NCBI RefSeq assembly: GCF_000021945.1
Contig: NC_011831.1
Coordinates: 620,001-684,000 of the forward strand
Origin: Chloroflexus aggregans DSM 9485
Lineage (GTDB): Bacteria; Chloroflexota; Chloroflexia; Chloroflexales; Chloroflexaceae
Direction of reading: 5' to 3'
DNA: 64,000 nt
How positions within the stretch are numbered: the stretch's first letter is position 1; every line of letters begins with the position of its first letter. Made by a program: the position numbers and the translations under genes. Below are positions 40,099-46,447 of this stretch, in pieces. Under the pieces are notes generated by a model. The model ran no database searches. It was not told the origin of the DNA and saw only the letters and a program-made list of their open reading frames with translations.

Positions 40099-40947
40099 TT
40101 ACTCGGTGGCACGCGCCGGACGTGGCTTGGTCGGTTGGAATGAGACCAAGACTCGATAGATGGTCAAAAACAGCACACTACCGCCACTCAGCCAGTACAA
40201 TCCGGTGAGAATATCGAGGTCGCTACCGCTGTAAACGGCATGCAGGAGGCTCAAAATCCAGATGACAAAGCTGAGGAAGTGAATCAGCCGCCACATCGTT
40301 CGCCCAATCCACTGCTTGATGTAGAAGCTGAGGCCAACCACCGCCATACCGTACAGTGCAAGCTGACCTAAACCAACCCACAACGGTTCATAACCGACGT
40401 AGCCGAAGGGTGTCAGAACTTCTGCCAACGTCGCACTGATGTAGCGGTCGCCAAGCAGGATGAGGGCGTGGAAAATGGCGAAAGCGAGACCCAATAAACT
40501 GGTATGCTGATGCAGATCGAAAGCGCCCGGACCTCCCGGCCATAGCCGTGCCATGCGGTTGGTCATGAGCAAGCCAAAGACCATCGATAACCAGAGTAGC
40601 GCATACGCGACAACAGCACTACTGCGCGAGAGATACCAGTAGGCTTTCGGCTCATCACCGGTCAACGACCAGCCCAGACCCGGCAACCACGCCGGCAAGA
40701 TGATGACTGCAGCGAATGCACCAAGGATAGCACCGAGCAGAATGGTGAAAAGCGCCGGTAATGACATCGCCGGTGGTAAATCGACCAGATCGGGATTGGC
40801 GGTGAGCGTGCGTTGTGGCCGTGCTGCCGGCTGCGCCGACTGAGCTGCTGCACGCGCCGGTCGAGGTGGACGAGACGGTGCAACCGGTTCCGCCTGAACG
40901 ACTTCGGCTGAGGTTGGTTGGTTGTTAGCGAGTGGTTCAGTGCTCAT
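40099..40947 (-). CDS. Ferric-reductase-like transmembrane haem protein
   Basis: A 282-residue membrane protein of the ferric reductase/MsrQ-like transmembrane family. The first 60 residues are Pro/Ala-rich and cytoplasmic. Six or seven helices follow with paired histidines suited to haem b: HQHTSLLGL, FHALILL, IHFLSF and LHAVYSG. No flavin or NAD domain is attached, so electrons must come from the quinone pool or a partner. It lies 13 bases after apbE on the same strand. With the flavin transferase, PepSY and haem proteins upstream it suggests an electron path across the membrane. Confidence 0.82.
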   Translation of the reverse strand: MSTEPLANNQPTSAEVVQAEPVAPSRPPRPARAAAQSAQPAARPQRTLTANPDLVDLPPAMSLPALFTILLGAILGAFAAVIILPAWLPGLGWSLTGDEPKAYWYLSRSSAVVAYALLWLSMVFGLLMTNRMARLWPGGPGAFDLHQHTSLLGLAFAIFHALILLGDRYISATLAEVLTPFGYVGYEPLWVGLGQLALYGMAVVGLSFYIKQWIGRTMWRLIHFLSFVIWILSLLHAVYSGSDLDILTGLYWLSGGSVLFLTIYRVLVSFQPTKPRPARATE

Positions 40948-40960
40948 AATCTATGTCTCC

Positions 40961-41902
40961 TCATGCAGTTGGGATTGCCGTTGGTTGCCAGCAATAGCGG
41001 GCAAGATTCGGCGTGCGAATGATCGTACCGTCAAGCCGTATCAATAGAGCAGCCAGTTGAGGACGAGTCGCGAGCCAGGGCAAACCTGCCTCAGAGCCGA
41101 GGATGACGACCGTTTTGGCCGCCATTTCGGCAATGGTAAGGCTGGGCGCAACCACAGTTGCGGCCAAAATATCGGTGGCAGCAGGCGAACCGGTACGCGG
41201 ATCAATCAGATGGTGCTGCCATCGATCACCTTGTTGCCAACGCCGATAATCGATACCGGAGGTAGCGACCCCGCCACGCCGGAGTAAGAGAAGTTCGAGA
41301 CCATTGTCGGGATTGTGCGGATCGGCTACCTCAATTGGCCAAGGCGCACCGTTGCGCTGTGGACCGCTGATGGCAATATCGCCACCGGCGTCGACGAGCG
41401 TGGGAAAGCGACGCCCTAAGCGACGGGCAACGATAGCCGCCGTCCAACCCTTGGCACTCCCTCCTAGATCGAGCTGTACCCCGGCGGGGAGAGTGATAGT
41501 ACGTCGATGCGGATCAAGCCGAATGTGTCGCCAATCGGGAGAAGGATGGGCAGCGGCTAACCGATGCACGACCCCATTGGTGAGGGTAGCAAAATCGCGA
41601 TCGTAGCCAGCAGCGACCAGTGCGGCACCGACTGTCGGCGTAACAATACCATTGCTGGCAGACGCAGCCTGCAAGGCATGCTGCACGGCACGCCACAGCG
41701 TGTATCCAACCCGCACCGGCCCACGACCGGCACGTCGGTTGAGCGCCGACAGTTCACTGTGCGAACGAAAGCGGCTCAGAATCTGCTCGTAGCGCAGAAA
41801 GGTTTGCCGGGCGACGTTGAGTGCTGGGCGAGCTGTCGGATCATCGCTATCGATCACGATCGTGATCGTTGAACCCATCGCGCGAAACTGTAGCCGCTGC
41901 AT
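40961..41902 (-). CDS. apbE: ApbE-type FAD:protein FMN transferase
   Basis: A 313-residue ApbE that attaches FMN through a phosphodiester bond to Ser/Thr of exported redox proteins. Family motifs are present: FRAMGSTITIVI at the start, the flavin-binding DLGGSAKGWTAAIVARRL, DAGGDIAISG, and the metal-binding WQHHLIDPRTGSPAAT. There is no clear signal peptide or lipobox at the N-terminus, which is unusual since most ApbE act outside the cytoplasm. No FMN-binding domain with the target motif is encoded in this cluster, so the acceptor protein is not known. It lies between the anchored Pro/Ala protein and the ferric-reductase-like gene. Confidence 0.9.
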   Translation of the reverse strand: MQRLQFRAMGSTITIVIDSDDPTARPALNVARQTFLRYEQILSRFRSHSELSALNRRAGRGPVRVGYTLWRAVQHALQAASASNGIVTPTVGAALVAAGYDRDFATLTNGVVHRLAAAHPSPDWRHIRLDPHRRTITLPAGVQLDLGGSAKGWTAAIVARRLGRRFPTLVDAGGDIAISGPQRNGAPWPIEVADPHNPDNGLELLLLRRGGVATSGIDYRRWQQGDRWQHHLIDPRTGSPAATDILAATVVAPSLTIAEMAAKTVVILGSEAGLPWLATRPQLAALLIRLDGTIIRTPNLARYCWQPTAIPTA

Positions 41903-41916
41903 GATGCTTCCTCCAT

Positions 41917-42351
41917 TTACCGTGACGAACGAGTGCGAGCCGCCGGAGCGGGGCGAGGAGCCGATGCCGGCACCGAGACTTCACGGAGAGCAGGGGCAGG
42001 AGCCGCCGCCGGTGCAGGAGCCGCCGCCGGCGCTGGTGCCGCTACCGGTGCAGGAGCCGCCGCCGGCGCTGGTGCCGCCGCCGGCGCTGGTGCCGGACGG
42101 TCGGGAATGTTCAGGGGTGCGACTGTCGGGACTACCGGTATTGCAGGCGACTGGTTCAACCACCCTGGTAGCGACTGGCGCTCAACGATTGGCGACTCGA
42201 CCACAATATTGGGAGTAGTTGCCGCTACCTCAGGCGGGTTTTGGGAAGTTAACCAGCCCCAACCGCCGATAGTGATGGCGAAGGCGGCAGTACTAATTGC
42301 CCATTTAAGACCGGTTACATCCATTCGAGCCGGTTTGCGATGCTGTTGCAT
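41917..42351 (-). CDS. Membrane-anchored Pro/Ala-rich protein
   Basis: A 144-residue protein with one N-terminal membrane helix (KWAISTAAFAITIGGWGWLT), then about 60 residues without a known domain, and a low-complexity tail built from repeats of PAPAAA ending in PAPAARTRSSR. The tail should be an extended, stiff segment in the cell wall or periplasm. No enzyme motif is present. It lies 14 bases before apbE, so it is co-transcribed, and shares its Pro/Ala style with the PepSY protein upstream. It may act as a spacer or scaffold for the electron-transfer proteins; that is inference. Confidence 0.7.
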   Translation of the reverse strand: MQQHRKPARMDVTGLKWAISTAAFAITIGGWGWLTSQNPPEVAATTPNIVVESPIVERQSLPGWLNQSPAIPVVPTVAPLNIPDRPAPAPAAAPAPAAAPAPVAAPAPAAAPAPAAAPAPALREVSVPASAPRPAPAARTRSSR

Positions 42352-42386
42352 AGTTACCCTCTCTGTGTGTAGATTACTAGCGACGG

Positions 42387-42422
42387 GGGCTACCTAGTGG
42401 GGGATTACCCACCGGGTAGCCC
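42387..42422 (-). terminator. Long hairpin between the PepSY and Pro/Ala genes
   Basis: GGGCTACC (42387-42394) pairs with GGTAGCCC (42415-42422), and an inner GTGGG/CCCAC adds five pairs. On the minus strand no T-tract follows, so it may attenuate or stabilise mRNA rather than stop transcription fully. Confidence 0.5.
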
Positions 42423-42477
42423 TACCGATCTAATCGTCCTCGTCTTTGTCCTTCTTGTCGTCGTCGTGATTATCCTT

Positions 42478-43341
42478 CTACTTGTCGTCGTCGTGGTCAT
42501 CACCACCAGCATTCTTGACTTTGGCGTAGACTACTTGACCGTTGTATGCGTCGACGTAGACTTCACTGCCGTCGGTGAATTTGACCTCGTATACGTCAAC
42601 ACCATGCTCATATTCACGCTTAACCTTCGCGACTGTACCGCCACCAAGGTAGCTTACTGCAGCAGCGATGGCTTGGTCTTCGCCGATCGGATTAGCGGCT
42701 TGCGCGACTTCAACGATGGTGTTGGCTAAAATCGCACCGGTTTGCGCATCGATGTAGATGGCGCCACGATCAAAGACGACTTCATACGCCGGTGTACCCT
42801 GTAAGCTGACCAACTCAGGGGCGCGCATCAAGGTTGCGCCACCGGCATTAGCGATAGCAATGGCTTGGGCTTGCTCAGGCGATACTGCATAGGTCGGCGC
42901 AGGAGGTGCCGCCGGTGCCGGTGCCGCCGCCGGTGCCGCTGCTGCCGGTGCCGCTGCTGCCGGTGCCGCTGCTGCCGCCGGTGCTGCTGCCGGCGCGGGA
43001 GCTGCTGCCGCCGGTGCCGCTGCTGCCGGTGCCGCTGCTGCCGGTGCCGCTGCTGCCTGGGCCGAAAGTTCTTGCTGAGCAATCACAAGTCGCCGATTCG
43101 CTTCGGCCAGACGCTGATTGGCTTCGGCAAGAGCAGCTTGATATGCCGCTTCACGCTCACGGATCAACGCTTCCGCAGTTGGATCGATCGCCGGAACGGT
43201 AACGGGCGTAGCCTCAACGACAATCTCGGTGGGTACCGGTTCGGTAAACATCGTCAGACTGAGTTGACCGGCAACACCACCAATCACGACAAGTACGAAG
43301 GCAGTCAATGCAGCCGAGATGAGAAACATCGTGCGATTCAT
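42478..43341 (-). CDS. Exported double-PepSY protein with Ala/Pro linker
   Basis: A 287-residue protein with one N-terminal helix (about 6-28), a helical region (55-95), an Ala/Pro linker (95-150) and two PepSY domains (about 152-210 and 218-278). The second contains VYEVKFTDGSEVYVDAYNGQ. The tail is acidic (DDHDDDK). PepSY domains are found in peptidase inhibitors and in redox-linked membrane proteins. The linker is encoded by a 15-base DNA repeat and could vary in length by slippage. After the TAG stop, 15 more in-frame codons repeat the acidic HDDDK pattern before a second TAG, so the present stop may be recent. The second PepSY resembles the sensor domain of the kinase at 44864-46447. Confidence 0.85.
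   Translation of the reverse strand: MNRTMFLISAALTAFVLVVIGGVAGQLSLTMFTEPVPTEIVVEATPVTVPAIDPTAEALIREREAAYQAALAEANQRLAEANRRLVIAQQELSAQAAAAPAAAAPAAAAPAAAAPAPAAAPAAAAAPAAAAPAAAAPAAAPAPAAPPAPTYAVSPEQAQAIAIANAGGATLMRAPELVSLQGTPAYEVVFDRGAIYIDAQTGAILANTIVEVAQAANPIGEDQAIAAAVSYLGGGTVAKVKREYEHGVDVYEVKFTDGSEVYVDAYNGQVVYAKVKNAGGDDHDDDK
42905..43062. repeat. Low-complexity 15-base tandem repeat inside the PepSY gene
   Basis: Repeats of GCTGCTGCCGGTGCC, encoding APAAA on the minus strand, interrupted by a GCGCGGGAG segment. It is prone to copy-number change in multiples of five residues. A shorter related stretch lies at about 41998-42100 in the neighbouring gene. Confidence 0.8.
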
Positions 43342-43380
43342 ATGGTTTACTCCTCCTTATCAGATAAGATTCTGGTATGT

Positions 43381-43848
43381 TTAGTCGTCGTCGTGTTCTG
43401 TTGTGAATTGACCGCCGGTAAAGCCGGGTGTACCGGCAATCAGTGCCTGCACTTCTTGTGGAGTTAGTTTTGCGTCAGGATGGGTCAGTAGATACTGGCG
43501 GGGCGGCATTTCACCCTCAAGTACGACCTCGGCAATCTCTTGGGCTAACTCAGCCGGTTCACGGAGCGGAAGTGAGAAGTTCAGATGATTCCGCCCCTTA
43601 ATTACGTCGTAGGTAACCAACCACGAGACCGGTGCGATTTTGCTATACCACGGCCAGACCGTCTCGTTGCTGTGGCAGTCATAGCACGCGCGGCGGGCAA
43701 TACTCGCTGCTTCGGGTGTTGTCCACGCCACATCCGTCACGACCGGCGGATTGGTTTGCCATGCCCATACCGGCACGGCCTGGATAGCGACAAACAGGAT
43801 CACGATGGCAATTGCTACATTGCGAGGCCGGAATAGTCGCTTCAACAT
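43381..43848 (-). CDS. Membrane-anchored haem-binding (c-type) protein
   Basis: A 155-residue protein with an N-terminal helix (VAIAIVILFVAIQAVPVWAW) and one haem c motif, CYDCH, at about residues 54-58, followed by SNETVWPWYSKIAPVSWLV. This pattern belongs to the small haem-binding domain family. The C-terminal EHDDD echoes the acidic tail of the next protein. It is the first gene of the minus-strand cluster and lies 39 bases before the PepSY gene. It likely passes electrons at the outer face of the membrane. GGAGATGACATT precedes ATG 43848. Confidence 0.85.
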   Translation of the reverse strand: MLKRLFRPRNVAIAIVILFVAIQAVPVWAWQTNPPVVTDVAWTTPEAASIARRACYDCHSNETVWPWYSKIAPVSWLVTYDVIKGRNHLNFSLPLREPAELAQEIAEVVLEGEMPPRQYLLTHPDAKLTPQEVQALIAGTPGFTGGQFTTEHDDD

Positions 43849-44190
43849 AATGTCATCTCCATTGCGTTGTTCAGGTTCCGCCTATAACCATACCGGTGCT
43901 CGCTCAAAAGAGTCTTAAAATGAAATGCAGATATTCCAATCTTTTTCCAAGGTTGGGAGGGTATAACAAGCATGACGCGAATCAGCAGGGGTAACGCGAG
44001 CCGAGACCTGCGAAACTCACCGGCGAATGAGGCTCTTCTTACTTAGAAGCGGAGATGACCGCAGCTATAAGAGGGTCTAGCAAGATAGGATATTGGATCG
44101 TCGATTTCTCATCCTTAGCAAAAAATGCTCGGCCTGACATAGAGCGCTGCTAGCTGTTCCTATGTCTTATGACTATCTTGAGGAGTAAGC
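43849..44190. promoter_or_regulatory. Divergent intergenic region between the haem/PepSY cluster and its two-component system
   Basis: This 342-base gap must hold the promoters of both units. I see no long repeat, RNA gene or open frame in it. Purine-rich ribosome sites lie at both ends (GGAGATG on the minus strand, TTGAGGAG before 44191). On the minus strand a TTATAGG-like -10 lies near 43880. Binding sites for the response regulator are expected here but I cannot point to one with confidence. Confidence 0.4.
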
Positions 44191-44871
44191 ATGCGCATTT
44201 TGATAGTGGAAGATGACAAACGGCTAGCCCGCCTGATCGAGCGTGTGTTACGCGAAGAGCGCCATACCGTCGATGTTGCCCACGACGGTGAGAGCGGGCT
44301 TGATATGCTGTTGCAGGGCGTGTACGACGTAGCAGTGATTGACTGGATGCTGCCAGGACGAGATGGGCCATCGTTGTGCCGAGCAGCACGAGCAGCACGG
44401 TTGCCGACTGCATTGCTTTTGCTCACGGCACGCGGGCAAATTGAAGATAAAATGTTGGGATTTGAAAGCGGCGCCGACGATTATCTCGTCAAACCGTTCG
44501 CTTTTGAGGAATTGTTGGCCCGTGTGCGCGCATTGGGACGACGCTTTAACCCGAATCTTGGCAATGACGAGCTACGGATCGGCACTATCGTTCTCGATTT
44601 GCGCAGCTACACGGCCCGTCGTGGCGAACGCCGACTCGATCTGACGCCAACCGAATGGCGGCTACTCGAATATCTGATGCGAAACGCCGGGCAGACGCTC
44701 ACCCGTCAGCAGATCCTTGATTATGTCTGGTCGTTTGAGCACGACGTGCAACCGCAGATGGTTGATGTCTACGTTTCGTATTTGCGGCGCAAACTCAACG
44801 CACCGGGTGAGGCTGACCCGATTGTGACGGTGCGCGGCATCGGTTACCGGCTGGAGGCAGAACGTGCTTAA
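44191..44871 (+). CDS. OmpR/PhoB-family response regulator
   Basis: A 226-residue response regulator. The receiver domain has the acidic pair in VEDDKR, the phospho-acceptor Asp in VAVIDWMLPGRDGP (about residue 51), Thr in LLLTARG and Lys in DYLVKPF. The C-terminal winged-helix DNA-binding domain is complete (LTPTEWRLLEYLMRNAGQTL, then MVDVYVSYLRRKL and TVRGIGYRLE). The 3' end overlaps the kinase gene by eight bases. It is divergent from the haem/PepSY cluster, its most likely target. Confidence 0.94.
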   Translation: MRILIVEDDKRLARLIERVLREERHTVDVAHDGESGLDMLLQGVYDVAVIDWMLPGRDGPSLCRAARAARLPTALLLLTARGQIEDKMLGFESGADDYLVKPFAFEELLARVRALGRRFNPNLGNDELRIGTIVLDLRSYTARRGERRLDLTPTEWRLLEYLMRNAGQTLTRQQILDYVWSFEHDVQPQMVDVYVSYLRRKLNAPGEADPIVTVRGIGYRLEAERA

Positions 44872-46447
44872 ACTCCTGATGAAGAGCGTGACCCAATCGA
44901 CCTCAAGCGCGAAGCCAGGTATCGATTGGAGACGGAACGTACTTAAACCACTGCGTTGGCAATTTACCTTTCTCTATACCCTTGCCGCTATCGTGATCAT
45001 CGTTTTGATCGGTGGTGGTGCCTACACGATTGTTAACCGCTACTTCGAGCAGATCACCGATCTTGCTTTACAGCATAAAATGGTGCATGAGTTTCATTCG
45101 CTCAATGCGCCACTTCCGCCGGAATTGGCAACGGCTGACGTAGATTGGTCGGTGTTACGGACAGAGGGGATGAGCAATCGCGGCCGTCTGTTAACACCGC
45201 AAGAAGCGAGGCGGATTGCCCTTGCGGCGCGCAACGGTGAGATTAAGAGCGTGAAGCTGAAGGAAAAAGACAATGAATACGAAATAAAATTCCGTGATGA
45301 TAGTGAAATCATCGTTGATGCGTATAGTGGTAGGATTCTTGAGATCGAGATCAAGGGCGAACACCTGAATCCGCCGACAACGACTTTACTGCCGGCAGCT
45401 TATGATGCCGAACTAGCCTCGATCTTCGTGCTACCACTCGACGAGCAAGGCCGCATTCTGTTTAATCCTAACCCAGCAGCATTACCAATGCCTGCGCATC
45501 AAGAAGCGCTAGCGGCTGCCCTACGGAACGGTTCGGACCTACGCACAATTACGACGATCAACGGGGAACGGGTACGGTTATTGACCTACCGGCTTACACG
45601 GTCTGACGGACCGGCGGCACTGCAACTAGGCCGTGTTCTCAACGATCAAGAGCAGGTTCTGTATCAGTTGCTGACGGGTTTGGTAGGGTTTGGGATAGTC
45701 GGCGCAGTCATGATCGGTATTGCGAGCTGGTGGCTCGCCGGACGAGCACTGCGTCCGGCGGAGGAGGCATGGACGCGCCAATTGCGCTTCATCTCAAGTG
45801 CCAGCCACGAATTGCGCGCGCCGCTAACGCTCATCCGGGCTAGCGCTGAAGTCGCGCTGCGCAATGCAAAAGACGAGGATCAGCGCGAACTCTTGACCGA
45901 TGTGCTGAGCGAAAGCGATCACATGCGCCGGCTGGTTGACGATCTGCTCACACTCTCTCGGCTCGACAGCGGGTCGTTGACTTTACAACGCCAACCGATA
46001 ACACTTAACGATTTTTTGGCCGATCTTCACCGTCACGTCAGTCGGCTCGGTGAAGAACGTGGAATAACCATCACCCTAGCGCAGGCCAGAGGTACGGTGA
46101 TTGCCGATCCCGACCGGTTGCGGCAGATTCTGTTGATCCTGATCGACAACGCCCTCCGCTACACGCCTACCGGCGGCACGATTACGCTCAACGCTGAGCT
46201 AGCCGGCAAACAGGTGCGGATCAGCGTGCGTGATACCGGTTGCGGCATCACGCCTGAACACCTGCCCCACCTGTTCGAGCGGTTTTACCGGGCGGATCAG
46301 GCACGCAACCGATCGAGTAACACCAATAATGCCGGCCTTGGACTCTCGATTGCCAAGGGCTTAGTTGAGGCCCATGGCGGCACGATAGGGATCGAGAGTG
46401 AGGTGAACAAAGGTACTCTGGTGTGGTTTACCATCCCGACGGCATAA
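44864..46447 (+). CDS. Sensor histidine kinase with an extracytoplasmic PepSY domain
   Basis: A 527-residue membrane sensor kinase. Helix 1 is at about 34-57 and helix 2 at about 267-290. The loop between them (about 210 residues) contains a PepSY-like segment at 108-165 (EYEIKFRDDSEIIVDAYSGR). The kinase core follows without an obvious HAMP: H-box SHELRAPL with H315, N-box LIDNALRYTP, G1 DTGCGITPEHLP and G2 GLGLSIAKGL. The PepSY segment matches the second PepSY domain of the divergent cluster's protein (42478-43341) closely. So sensor and presumed target share a module. The start is GTG 44864 inside the regulator gene. Confidence 0.92.
   Translation: MLKLLMKSVTQSTSSAKPGIDWRRNVLKPLRWQFTFLYTLAAIVIIVLIGGGAYTIVNRYFEQITDLALQHKMVHEFHSLNAPLPPELATADVDWSVLRTEGMSNRGRLLTPQEARRIALAARNGEIKSVKLKEKDNEYEIKFRDDSEIIVDAYSGRILEIEIKGEHLNPPTTTLLPAAYDAELASIFVLPLDEQGRILFNPNPAALPMPAHQEALAAALRNGSDLRTITTINGERVRLLTYRLTRSDGPAALQLGRVLNDQEQVLYQLLTGLVGFGIVGAVMIGIASWWLAGRALRPAEEAWTRQLRFISSASHELRAPLTLIRASAEVALRNAKDEDQRELLTDVLSESDHMRRLVDDLLTLSRLDSGSLTLQRQPITLNDFLADLHRHVSRLGEERGITITLAQARGTVIADPDRLRQILLILIDNALRYTPTGGTITLNAELAGKQVRISVRDTGCGITPEHLPHLFERFYRADQARNRSSNTNNAGLGLSIAKGLVEAHGGTIGIESEVNKGTLVWFTIPTA

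Follow-up and report, generated by a model that had tools for sequence, protein, structure and literature searches.

The window analysed here is a stretch of 64,000 nucleotides from Chloroflexus aggregans DSM 9485 (contig NC_011831.1, positions 620,001 to 684,000). Between its positions 40,099 and 46,447 it carries a divergent locus encoding an ApbE-family flavin transferase, a transmembrane cytochrome b, PepSY and haem proteins and a two-component system. All seven open reading frames (ORFs) sit where a first-pass annotation, made from the letters alone, had placed them. ORF positions together with Pfam matches also confirmed its description of five minus-strand genes facing a two-component pair over a gap of 342 bases. 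In our view the main interest of this locus lies in a Pro/Ala-rich arm protein with an acceptor-like C-terminus, and in the ApbE subfamily that matches it, rather than in the PepSY link.

Gene content and conservation of the locus

On the minus strand, the gene next to the gap (43381..43848, P0005) encodes a membrane-anchored monohaem c protein (Haem_bd, PF14376, E 5.7e-35) with a CYDCH motif and an acidic C-terminus, TEHDDD. It is followed by a single-pass tandem-PepSY protein (42478..43341, P0004), in which PF03413 matches two stretches (E 1.3e-17) and which has a Pro/Ala linker and an acidic/His C-terminus. The third gene (41917..42351, P0003) specifies the Pro/Ala-rich anchored arm protein, our proposed flavin carrier, which belongs to no Pfam family and ends in ARTRSSR. 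The last two encode the ApbE-family flavin transferase (40961..41902, P0002; PF02424, E 1.3e-53), without signal peptide and with ExxxK as its metal motif, and the ferric-reductase/NOX-like transmembrane cytochrome b (40099..40947). On the plus strand, an OmpR/PhoB-family response regulator (44191..44871; PF00072, PF00486) precedes a sensor histidine kinase (44864..46447; PF00512, PF02518; mean predicted local distance difference test score, pLDDT, of its model 86) whose extracytoplasmic domain contains a PepSY insertion. At the junction of these two genes (window 44836-44950) a near-duplicate, CTGGAGGCAGAACGTGCTTAAA / TTGGAGACGGAACGTACTTAAA, was noticed by eye; it lengthens the kinase N-terminus.

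A Pfam search with the ferric-reductase-like protein of the window gave no match. PF01794 was matched by 14 of the 26 members of the cytochrome alignment, in which H146, H160, H223 and H236 are invariant; these four histidines suggest that the protein probably binds two b haems. The best fold matches of its AlphaFold model (mean pLDDT 83) were bacterial NADPH oxidase and STEAP (probability 1.0, best E 5e-3). The relatives, the histidines and the fold all back the description of this membrane protein as ferric-reductase-like.

To view the locus in its relatives, 60 stretches around the cytochrome gene, from members of the same class, were annotated. PepSY protein, ApbE, cytochrome, regulator and kinase occur together in 28 of them, so that the cluster and the two-component pair adjoin in these sampled relatives as well. 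The order is nearly constant: kinase-regulator and, divergently, (haem protein)-PepSY-Pro/Ala protein-ApbE-cytochrome, with the haem protein being optional. The combination is not special to this genus and was found throughout the sampled order (families f1-f4). The tail of the arm protein, ApbE and the cytochrome form a core conserved in two phyla, while the PepSY protein, the haem protein and the kinase PepSY are variable. Of two very similar clusters, L175 and L176, one comes from a metagenome-assembled genome (MAG) labelled Isosphaeraceae and the other is labelled Chloroflexi; the Isosphaeraceae one is probably a misbinned contig.

A candidate flavin acceptor at the end of the arm protein

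In agreement with the first-pass annotation, FMN_bind, a target domain for flavin mononucleotide (FMN), was found neither in the window nor elsewhere in the 4,684,931-base single-contig genome (E up to 1), in which a genome scan detected one ApbE. Of 150 genomes of the class, 74 encode an ApbE and 8 an FMN_bind domain; an ApbE without FMN_bind is therefore a condition of the class. The domain is also missing altogether from 27 of the 39 genomes behind the related loci, mostly tail-bearing ones. A genome scan for the acceptor motif D-x2-[ST]-G-A-[ST], which had been proposed as a check, produced no useful excess (92 DNA matches vs 76 in the reversed control). A divergent form of the motif core was found instead at the C-terminus of the Pro/Ala protein. 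The earlier remark that ApbE has no FMN-binding target here leads in this way to a likely one, the Pro/Ala-rich anchored protein, which the first-pass annotation had listed and left unexamined.

Known ApbE acceptors carry [S/T]GA[S/T], the last residue of which is modified (PMC12052999). The arm protein terminates in TRSSR (T140 to R144; 41920..41934, minus strand), an instance of a conserved [ST]-x-x-S(R/K) end in which S143 is the proposed FMN acceptor. The spacing of the known acceptor is kept in this form at the arm C-terminus, while the Asp and often the Gly-Ala are absent. In most related loci the arm protein has a counterpart encoded immediately upstream of apbE, which is short and consists of a single N-terminal transmembrane helix, an arm rich in Ala, Pro, Ser, Thr and Gly, and a fixed C-terminus. 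Arms end with TRSSR or TQSSR in Chloroflexales and with RTRSS, RTRTS, TKAS or TTGGSK elsewhere. KTGGS, RTSGS, TSGGS, TSGTS, TRAS and others were found at 40 further ApbE loci of the phylum, and 68 named loci from a genome-contig scan widen the tail to Actinomycetota (SGGS, TGGS, THVS, SSGS). The tails include SGGS, TGGS, SGGT and SGAS.

These endings were also counted without reference to the motif. To this end, the closest ORF that lies upstream of an ApbE on the same strand and contains a hydrophobic stretch was picked for every ApbE (132 non-redundant proteins from Chloroflexota and Actinomycetota). A serine, or a serine plus a basic residue, ended 111 of the 132, and 109 of the 132 ended with [ST]xxS(R/K). 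The control frequencies of this end were 4 of 350 among other family proteins and 3.5% among ORFs of at least 150 amino acids. Within the 111 tails, position -4 was T (66) or S (43), that is 109 of 111; position -2 was mostly S, G, V or A and position -3 mostly R, G, S or K, and a proline stood at -8 in 82. The codons of the fixed residues vary freely (serine TCN or AGC) and all three stop codons are used while the residues stay the same, indicating that selection acts on the tail as protein. In some apparent exceptions the tail is encoded beside the cytochrome gene instead, and in L165 the slot of the arm is filled by an FMN_bind-type protein with SGAT. No family of Pfam or NCBIfam covers the tails tested.

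One could alternatively expect ApbE to flavinylate another member of the cluster, most likely the tandem-PepSY protein, with the Pro/Ala protein as a scaffold. The PepSY protein belongs to the operon in Chloroflexales, the first PepSY domain of P0004 carries D-A-Q-T-G-A, and the PepSY consensus DAxTGA resembles D-x-x-[ST]-G-A. However, the residue at the acceptor position is not Ser/Thr. The full D-x-x-[ST]-G-A-[ST] was present inside the PepSY domain in 0 of 41 PepSY relatives, and the single strict match obtained among all PepSY, haem and cytochrome orthologs falls outside that domain. Moreover, PepSY is undetected in most Actinomycetota and many Chloroflexota loci that retain ApbE, cytochrome and tail. 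We regard this alternative as very unlikely and retain the arm as the candidate substrate.

A tail-type ApbE subfamily and the proposed electron route

P0002 has the PF02424 fold and the active-site Ser, His, Lys and Asp of ApbE proteins. It begins at the mature domain and most of its relatives, judged by hydrophobicity only, are also without signal peptide. In Actinomycetota, where signal peptides were assigned in the same way, the motif was found in 21 of 27 ORFs upstream of ApbEs without signal peptide and with a cytochrome, and in 0 of 16 upstream of control ApbEs with a signal peptide and no cytochrome nearby. In a tree of 209 ApbEs, one split (support 0.96) parts all 36 canonical from all 135 tail-type proteins. 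Of the 36 canonical proteins, a set composed largely of top-scoring Pfam matches and therefore non-random, 33 carry an Asp-x3-Thr metal pair, vs 0 of the 135 tail-type; both labels were assigned from the neighbourhood and not from the metal site. The replacements are mostly ExxxK (as in P0002), NxxxT and DxxxK.

This loss could mean that tail-type ApbEs no longer transfer FMN and have become either a FAD (flavin adenine dinucleotide)-binding redox subunit of the cytochrome or a transferase of another group, with the serine motif serving as its docking peptide or receiving that other group. Replacement of DxxxT in every one of the 135 proteins would fit such a change, as would L073:9491-11188, in which a single ORF fuses ApbE with the transmembrane cytochrome. 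Nevertheless, the active-site Ser of ATSG, the His, the Lys and the Asp of DLGG are nearly invariant among tail-type ApbEs, as judged by column counts, and the tail keeps the exact [ST]-x-x-S spacing of known acceptors. Loss of FMN transfer is thus rather unlikely in our view.

The computed results, which comprise the gene content and its conservation, the tail motif, the clade of the ApbEs, the box conserved in the gap (see below) and the cytochrome fold, are best accounted for by a regulated electron-transfer system that spans the membrane and in which an unusual protein carries the flavin covalently. We think that this is probably what the locus encodes. A cytosolic ApbE of the distinct subfamily would move FMN from FAD onto a serine of the arm, probably S143. 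Cytosolic ApbEs exist, and artificial flavin tags perform best at the N or C terminus of a protein (PMC12052999). This loading of the tail is strongly suggested. Flavinylation itself, its acceptor residue and the subsequent steps, including the direction of electron flow and the metal, are what we infer, as is the regulation of the locus. The arm would be exported with its N-terminal anchor helix, leaving its tip outside; 93 of the 111 tails satisfy the positive-inside rule for a C-out topology. With the N-terminus anchored and the end outside, the flavin would sit on the tip of a flexible tether. In Ktedonobacteria the arm follows FAD_binding_6, NAD_binding_1 and Fer2 domains and a transmembrane helix in one fusion protein, so that it should lie outside and in a redox chain. 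The tail is joined to the end of a NAD(P)H-reductase-type protein with FAD, NAD and 2Fe-2S domains in L162:3920-5428, L193:852-2399 and L208:1178-2845. The NOX/STEAP-like cytochrome b would receive electrons from quinol or from a donor in the cytosol and pass them across the membrane to the tip flavin. The arm could then swing to its acceptors; these are probably the monohaem c protein, a metal (iron or another) on the acidic tandem-PepSY protein, or both. By eye, a NuoF-like protein (in L087 also a ferredoxin) was seen just upstream of tail-ApbE-cytochrome in L086:4832-6259 and L087:4990-6650; this neighbour is likely a cytosolic electron source.

Several points weigh against this interpretation. 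The tails lack the motif aspartate, and those of the TRSSR group also the Gly-Ala core; substitution of this aspartate had only minor effects on flavin-tagging (PMC12052999). The tail-type ApbEs no longer have the Asp/Thr metal pair, the Asp of which (D301 in Listeria FmnB) binds both Mg2+ ions; alanine at Mg-coordinating residues of FmnB greatly reduces or abolishes activity (PMC8906456). A cytosolic enzyme acting on an arm that ends outside requires the modification to take place before or during export, and modification before export of the unfolded arm would be the simplest idea. Finally, many of the genomes are MAGs and the related loci are not independent. Tentatively, and with more doubt than belief, one may picture the tail-type ApbE as a new transferase subclass with a rebuilt metal centre, perhaps with a lysine standing in for a metal ligand or with another donor. 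It would load a cofactor onto the C-terminal end of a disordered tether while this is still in the cytosol, and the tether would then be threaded through the membrane. If true, 'load first, export second' would be a general way for Chloroflexota and Actinomycetota to place flavin outside the cytosol.

The arrangement resembles the MsrQ-like ApbE-dependent systems (PMC8238504) in that apbE lies beside a PF01794-type transmembrane cytochrome, and in that some relatives here carry NAD-binding domains or NuoF-like neighbours. It differs from them by the lack of FMN_bind, the substrate candidate being a domainless arm with a C-terminal motif, and by its ApbE without signal peptide, whereas theirs is secreted or lipidated. 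The eLife survey (Meheust et al. 2021; PMC8238504), in which 670 orphan-apbE genomes are still unexplained, dropped genes without signal peptide, a filter that would have removed this ApbE. As for known ApbE substrates (FMN_bind, DUF2271, DUF3570, NqrB/RnfD, Flavodoxin_4, extended FMN_red), the gene adjoins apbE and the [S/T]-x-x-[S/T] spacing is shared; unstructured C-terminal flavinylation sites also occur, in the FMN_red extension (PMC11334425). In contrast to these substrates, the arm has no folded flavin domain and no motif aspartate, and its proposed acceptor is the final or penultimate residue. No description of such C-terminal tails was found in the literature searched, outside which were preprints and most subscription papers; a flavin carrier of this kind, recurrent in two phyla, seems to be undescribed. 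For two large phyla it would concretely explain 'orphan apbE' genomes, those with ApbE and no known substrate. What is predicted is a minimal flavoprotein without flavin-binding domain: it would swing like lipoyl and biotinyl arms, which it resembles in design, and carry FMN at its tip. The ApbE subfamily that goes with it is defined by an altered metal site. For Chloroflexus-type bacteria it would provide a regulated extracytosolic electron route.

Predicted control of the locus, and its PepSY modules

The 342-base gap contains a direct repeat, TTCCAATCTTTTTCCAA (43934..43950, plus strand), which fits TTCCAA-N5-TTCCAA with repeat starts 11 bp apart. This pattern is present at two sites genome-wide and was obtained 0 times in 100 shuffles of the window. 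It is conserved in the divergent region of 23 of the 28 related loci and nowhere else in 450 kb, with a second, opposite-strand copy in five of these loci. OmpR-family sites are typically direct repeats about one helical turn, some 11 bp, apart and near promoters, and the TTCCAA repeats in the shared promoter region have this form. Conservation in 23 of 28 loci and rarity in the genome make the repeat a probable OmpR-family response-regulator box and support the predicted control of the cluster by the two-component pair. Of the evidence gathered here, the repeat speaks most strongly for a pair that may tune its own expression and that of the operon. The kinase would sense the state outside. 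A scan of the gap for sigma-70 promoters and terminators found nothing. The other genomic copy (G000:C1:3025343-3025359, L305) has no convincing adjoining gene.

The PepSY segment that had been recognized in the kinase sensor has Pfam profile support: PF03413 matches residues 110-162 (45191..45349, plus strand) with E 9.4e-10, or 1.3e-9 in a genome scan, which also placed the two domains of P0004 at window 42529-42690 and 42724-42885. PF03413 is the sole PepSY family of the cluster, since Pfam detected no PepSY_TM (PF03929/PF16357) there. Among the sampled kinases PepSY is detectable in just 15, and the sensor flanks are conserved without the insertion too, which identifies the kinase PepSY as a lineage-specific insertion. 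It shares 37% identity with repeat 2 of the exported protein and 28% with repeat 1. Identity is no closer within a locus than between loci, and a recent duplication linking the two was not upheld. The proposal that sensor and effector share a ligand or bind one another is not supported as stated. Since the sharing of PepSY between them is not fixed, either form of binding is possible and unproven; in this bacterial family the insertion may read the same ligand, and the idea is reasonable as a lineage-specific refinement of an arrangement already known. A fold search with the kinase sensor gave weak Cache/PAS-like matches (best E 1.9e-3), and a PDB sequence search with P0004 returned solely low-complexity matches to its Pro/Ala linker.

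The PepSY/two-component link is indeed not novel. In UipA-UipRS (PMC8963506), a single-pass tandem-PepSY protein likewise adjoins a two-component system; here the PepSY protein is linked in addition to ApbE, cytochrome and haem protein, and its metal binding is putative. In Vibrio cholerae, DbfQRS also sets a PepSY protein beside a two-component system, and direct control of the kinase is possible (PMC12714742). It differs in that the kinase here itself bears a PepSY insertion and no biofilm link is known here. Such precedents could suggest that the locus is primarily an iron/metal handling and sensing system, with the PepSY proteins and the kinase at its centre and flavin and cytochrome as minor accessories. 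UipA binds uranyl (and, according to the title, iron; PMC8963506), DbfQ acts directly on its kinase (PMC12714742), and proteins of this cluster carry acidic/His tails. Yet it is tail, ApbE and cytochrome that are conserved over two phyla, while PepSY protein, haem protein and kinase PepSY vary from locus to locus; we consider the metal-centred explanation unlikely and keep the flavin carrier at the centre.

Some further features of these proteins were noted. Acidic/His runs of the HDDD type end both the haem protein (43381-43400) and the PepSY protein (42478-42500). An in-frame TAG interrupts the acidic tail of the latter (window 42432-42500), and the 15 in-frame codons that follow it (KDNHDDDKKDKDEDD) resemble the longer tails of relatives. 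In L079, L085 and L177, which are without PepSY, the slot is occupied by a protein that retains the N-terminal helix and the acidic tail and has no PepSY domain. A fourth genomic PepSY domain, away from the cluster at G000:C1:4264875 (L002), belongs to an exported-looking protein of 196 amino acids with EGPETPDAQ repeats.

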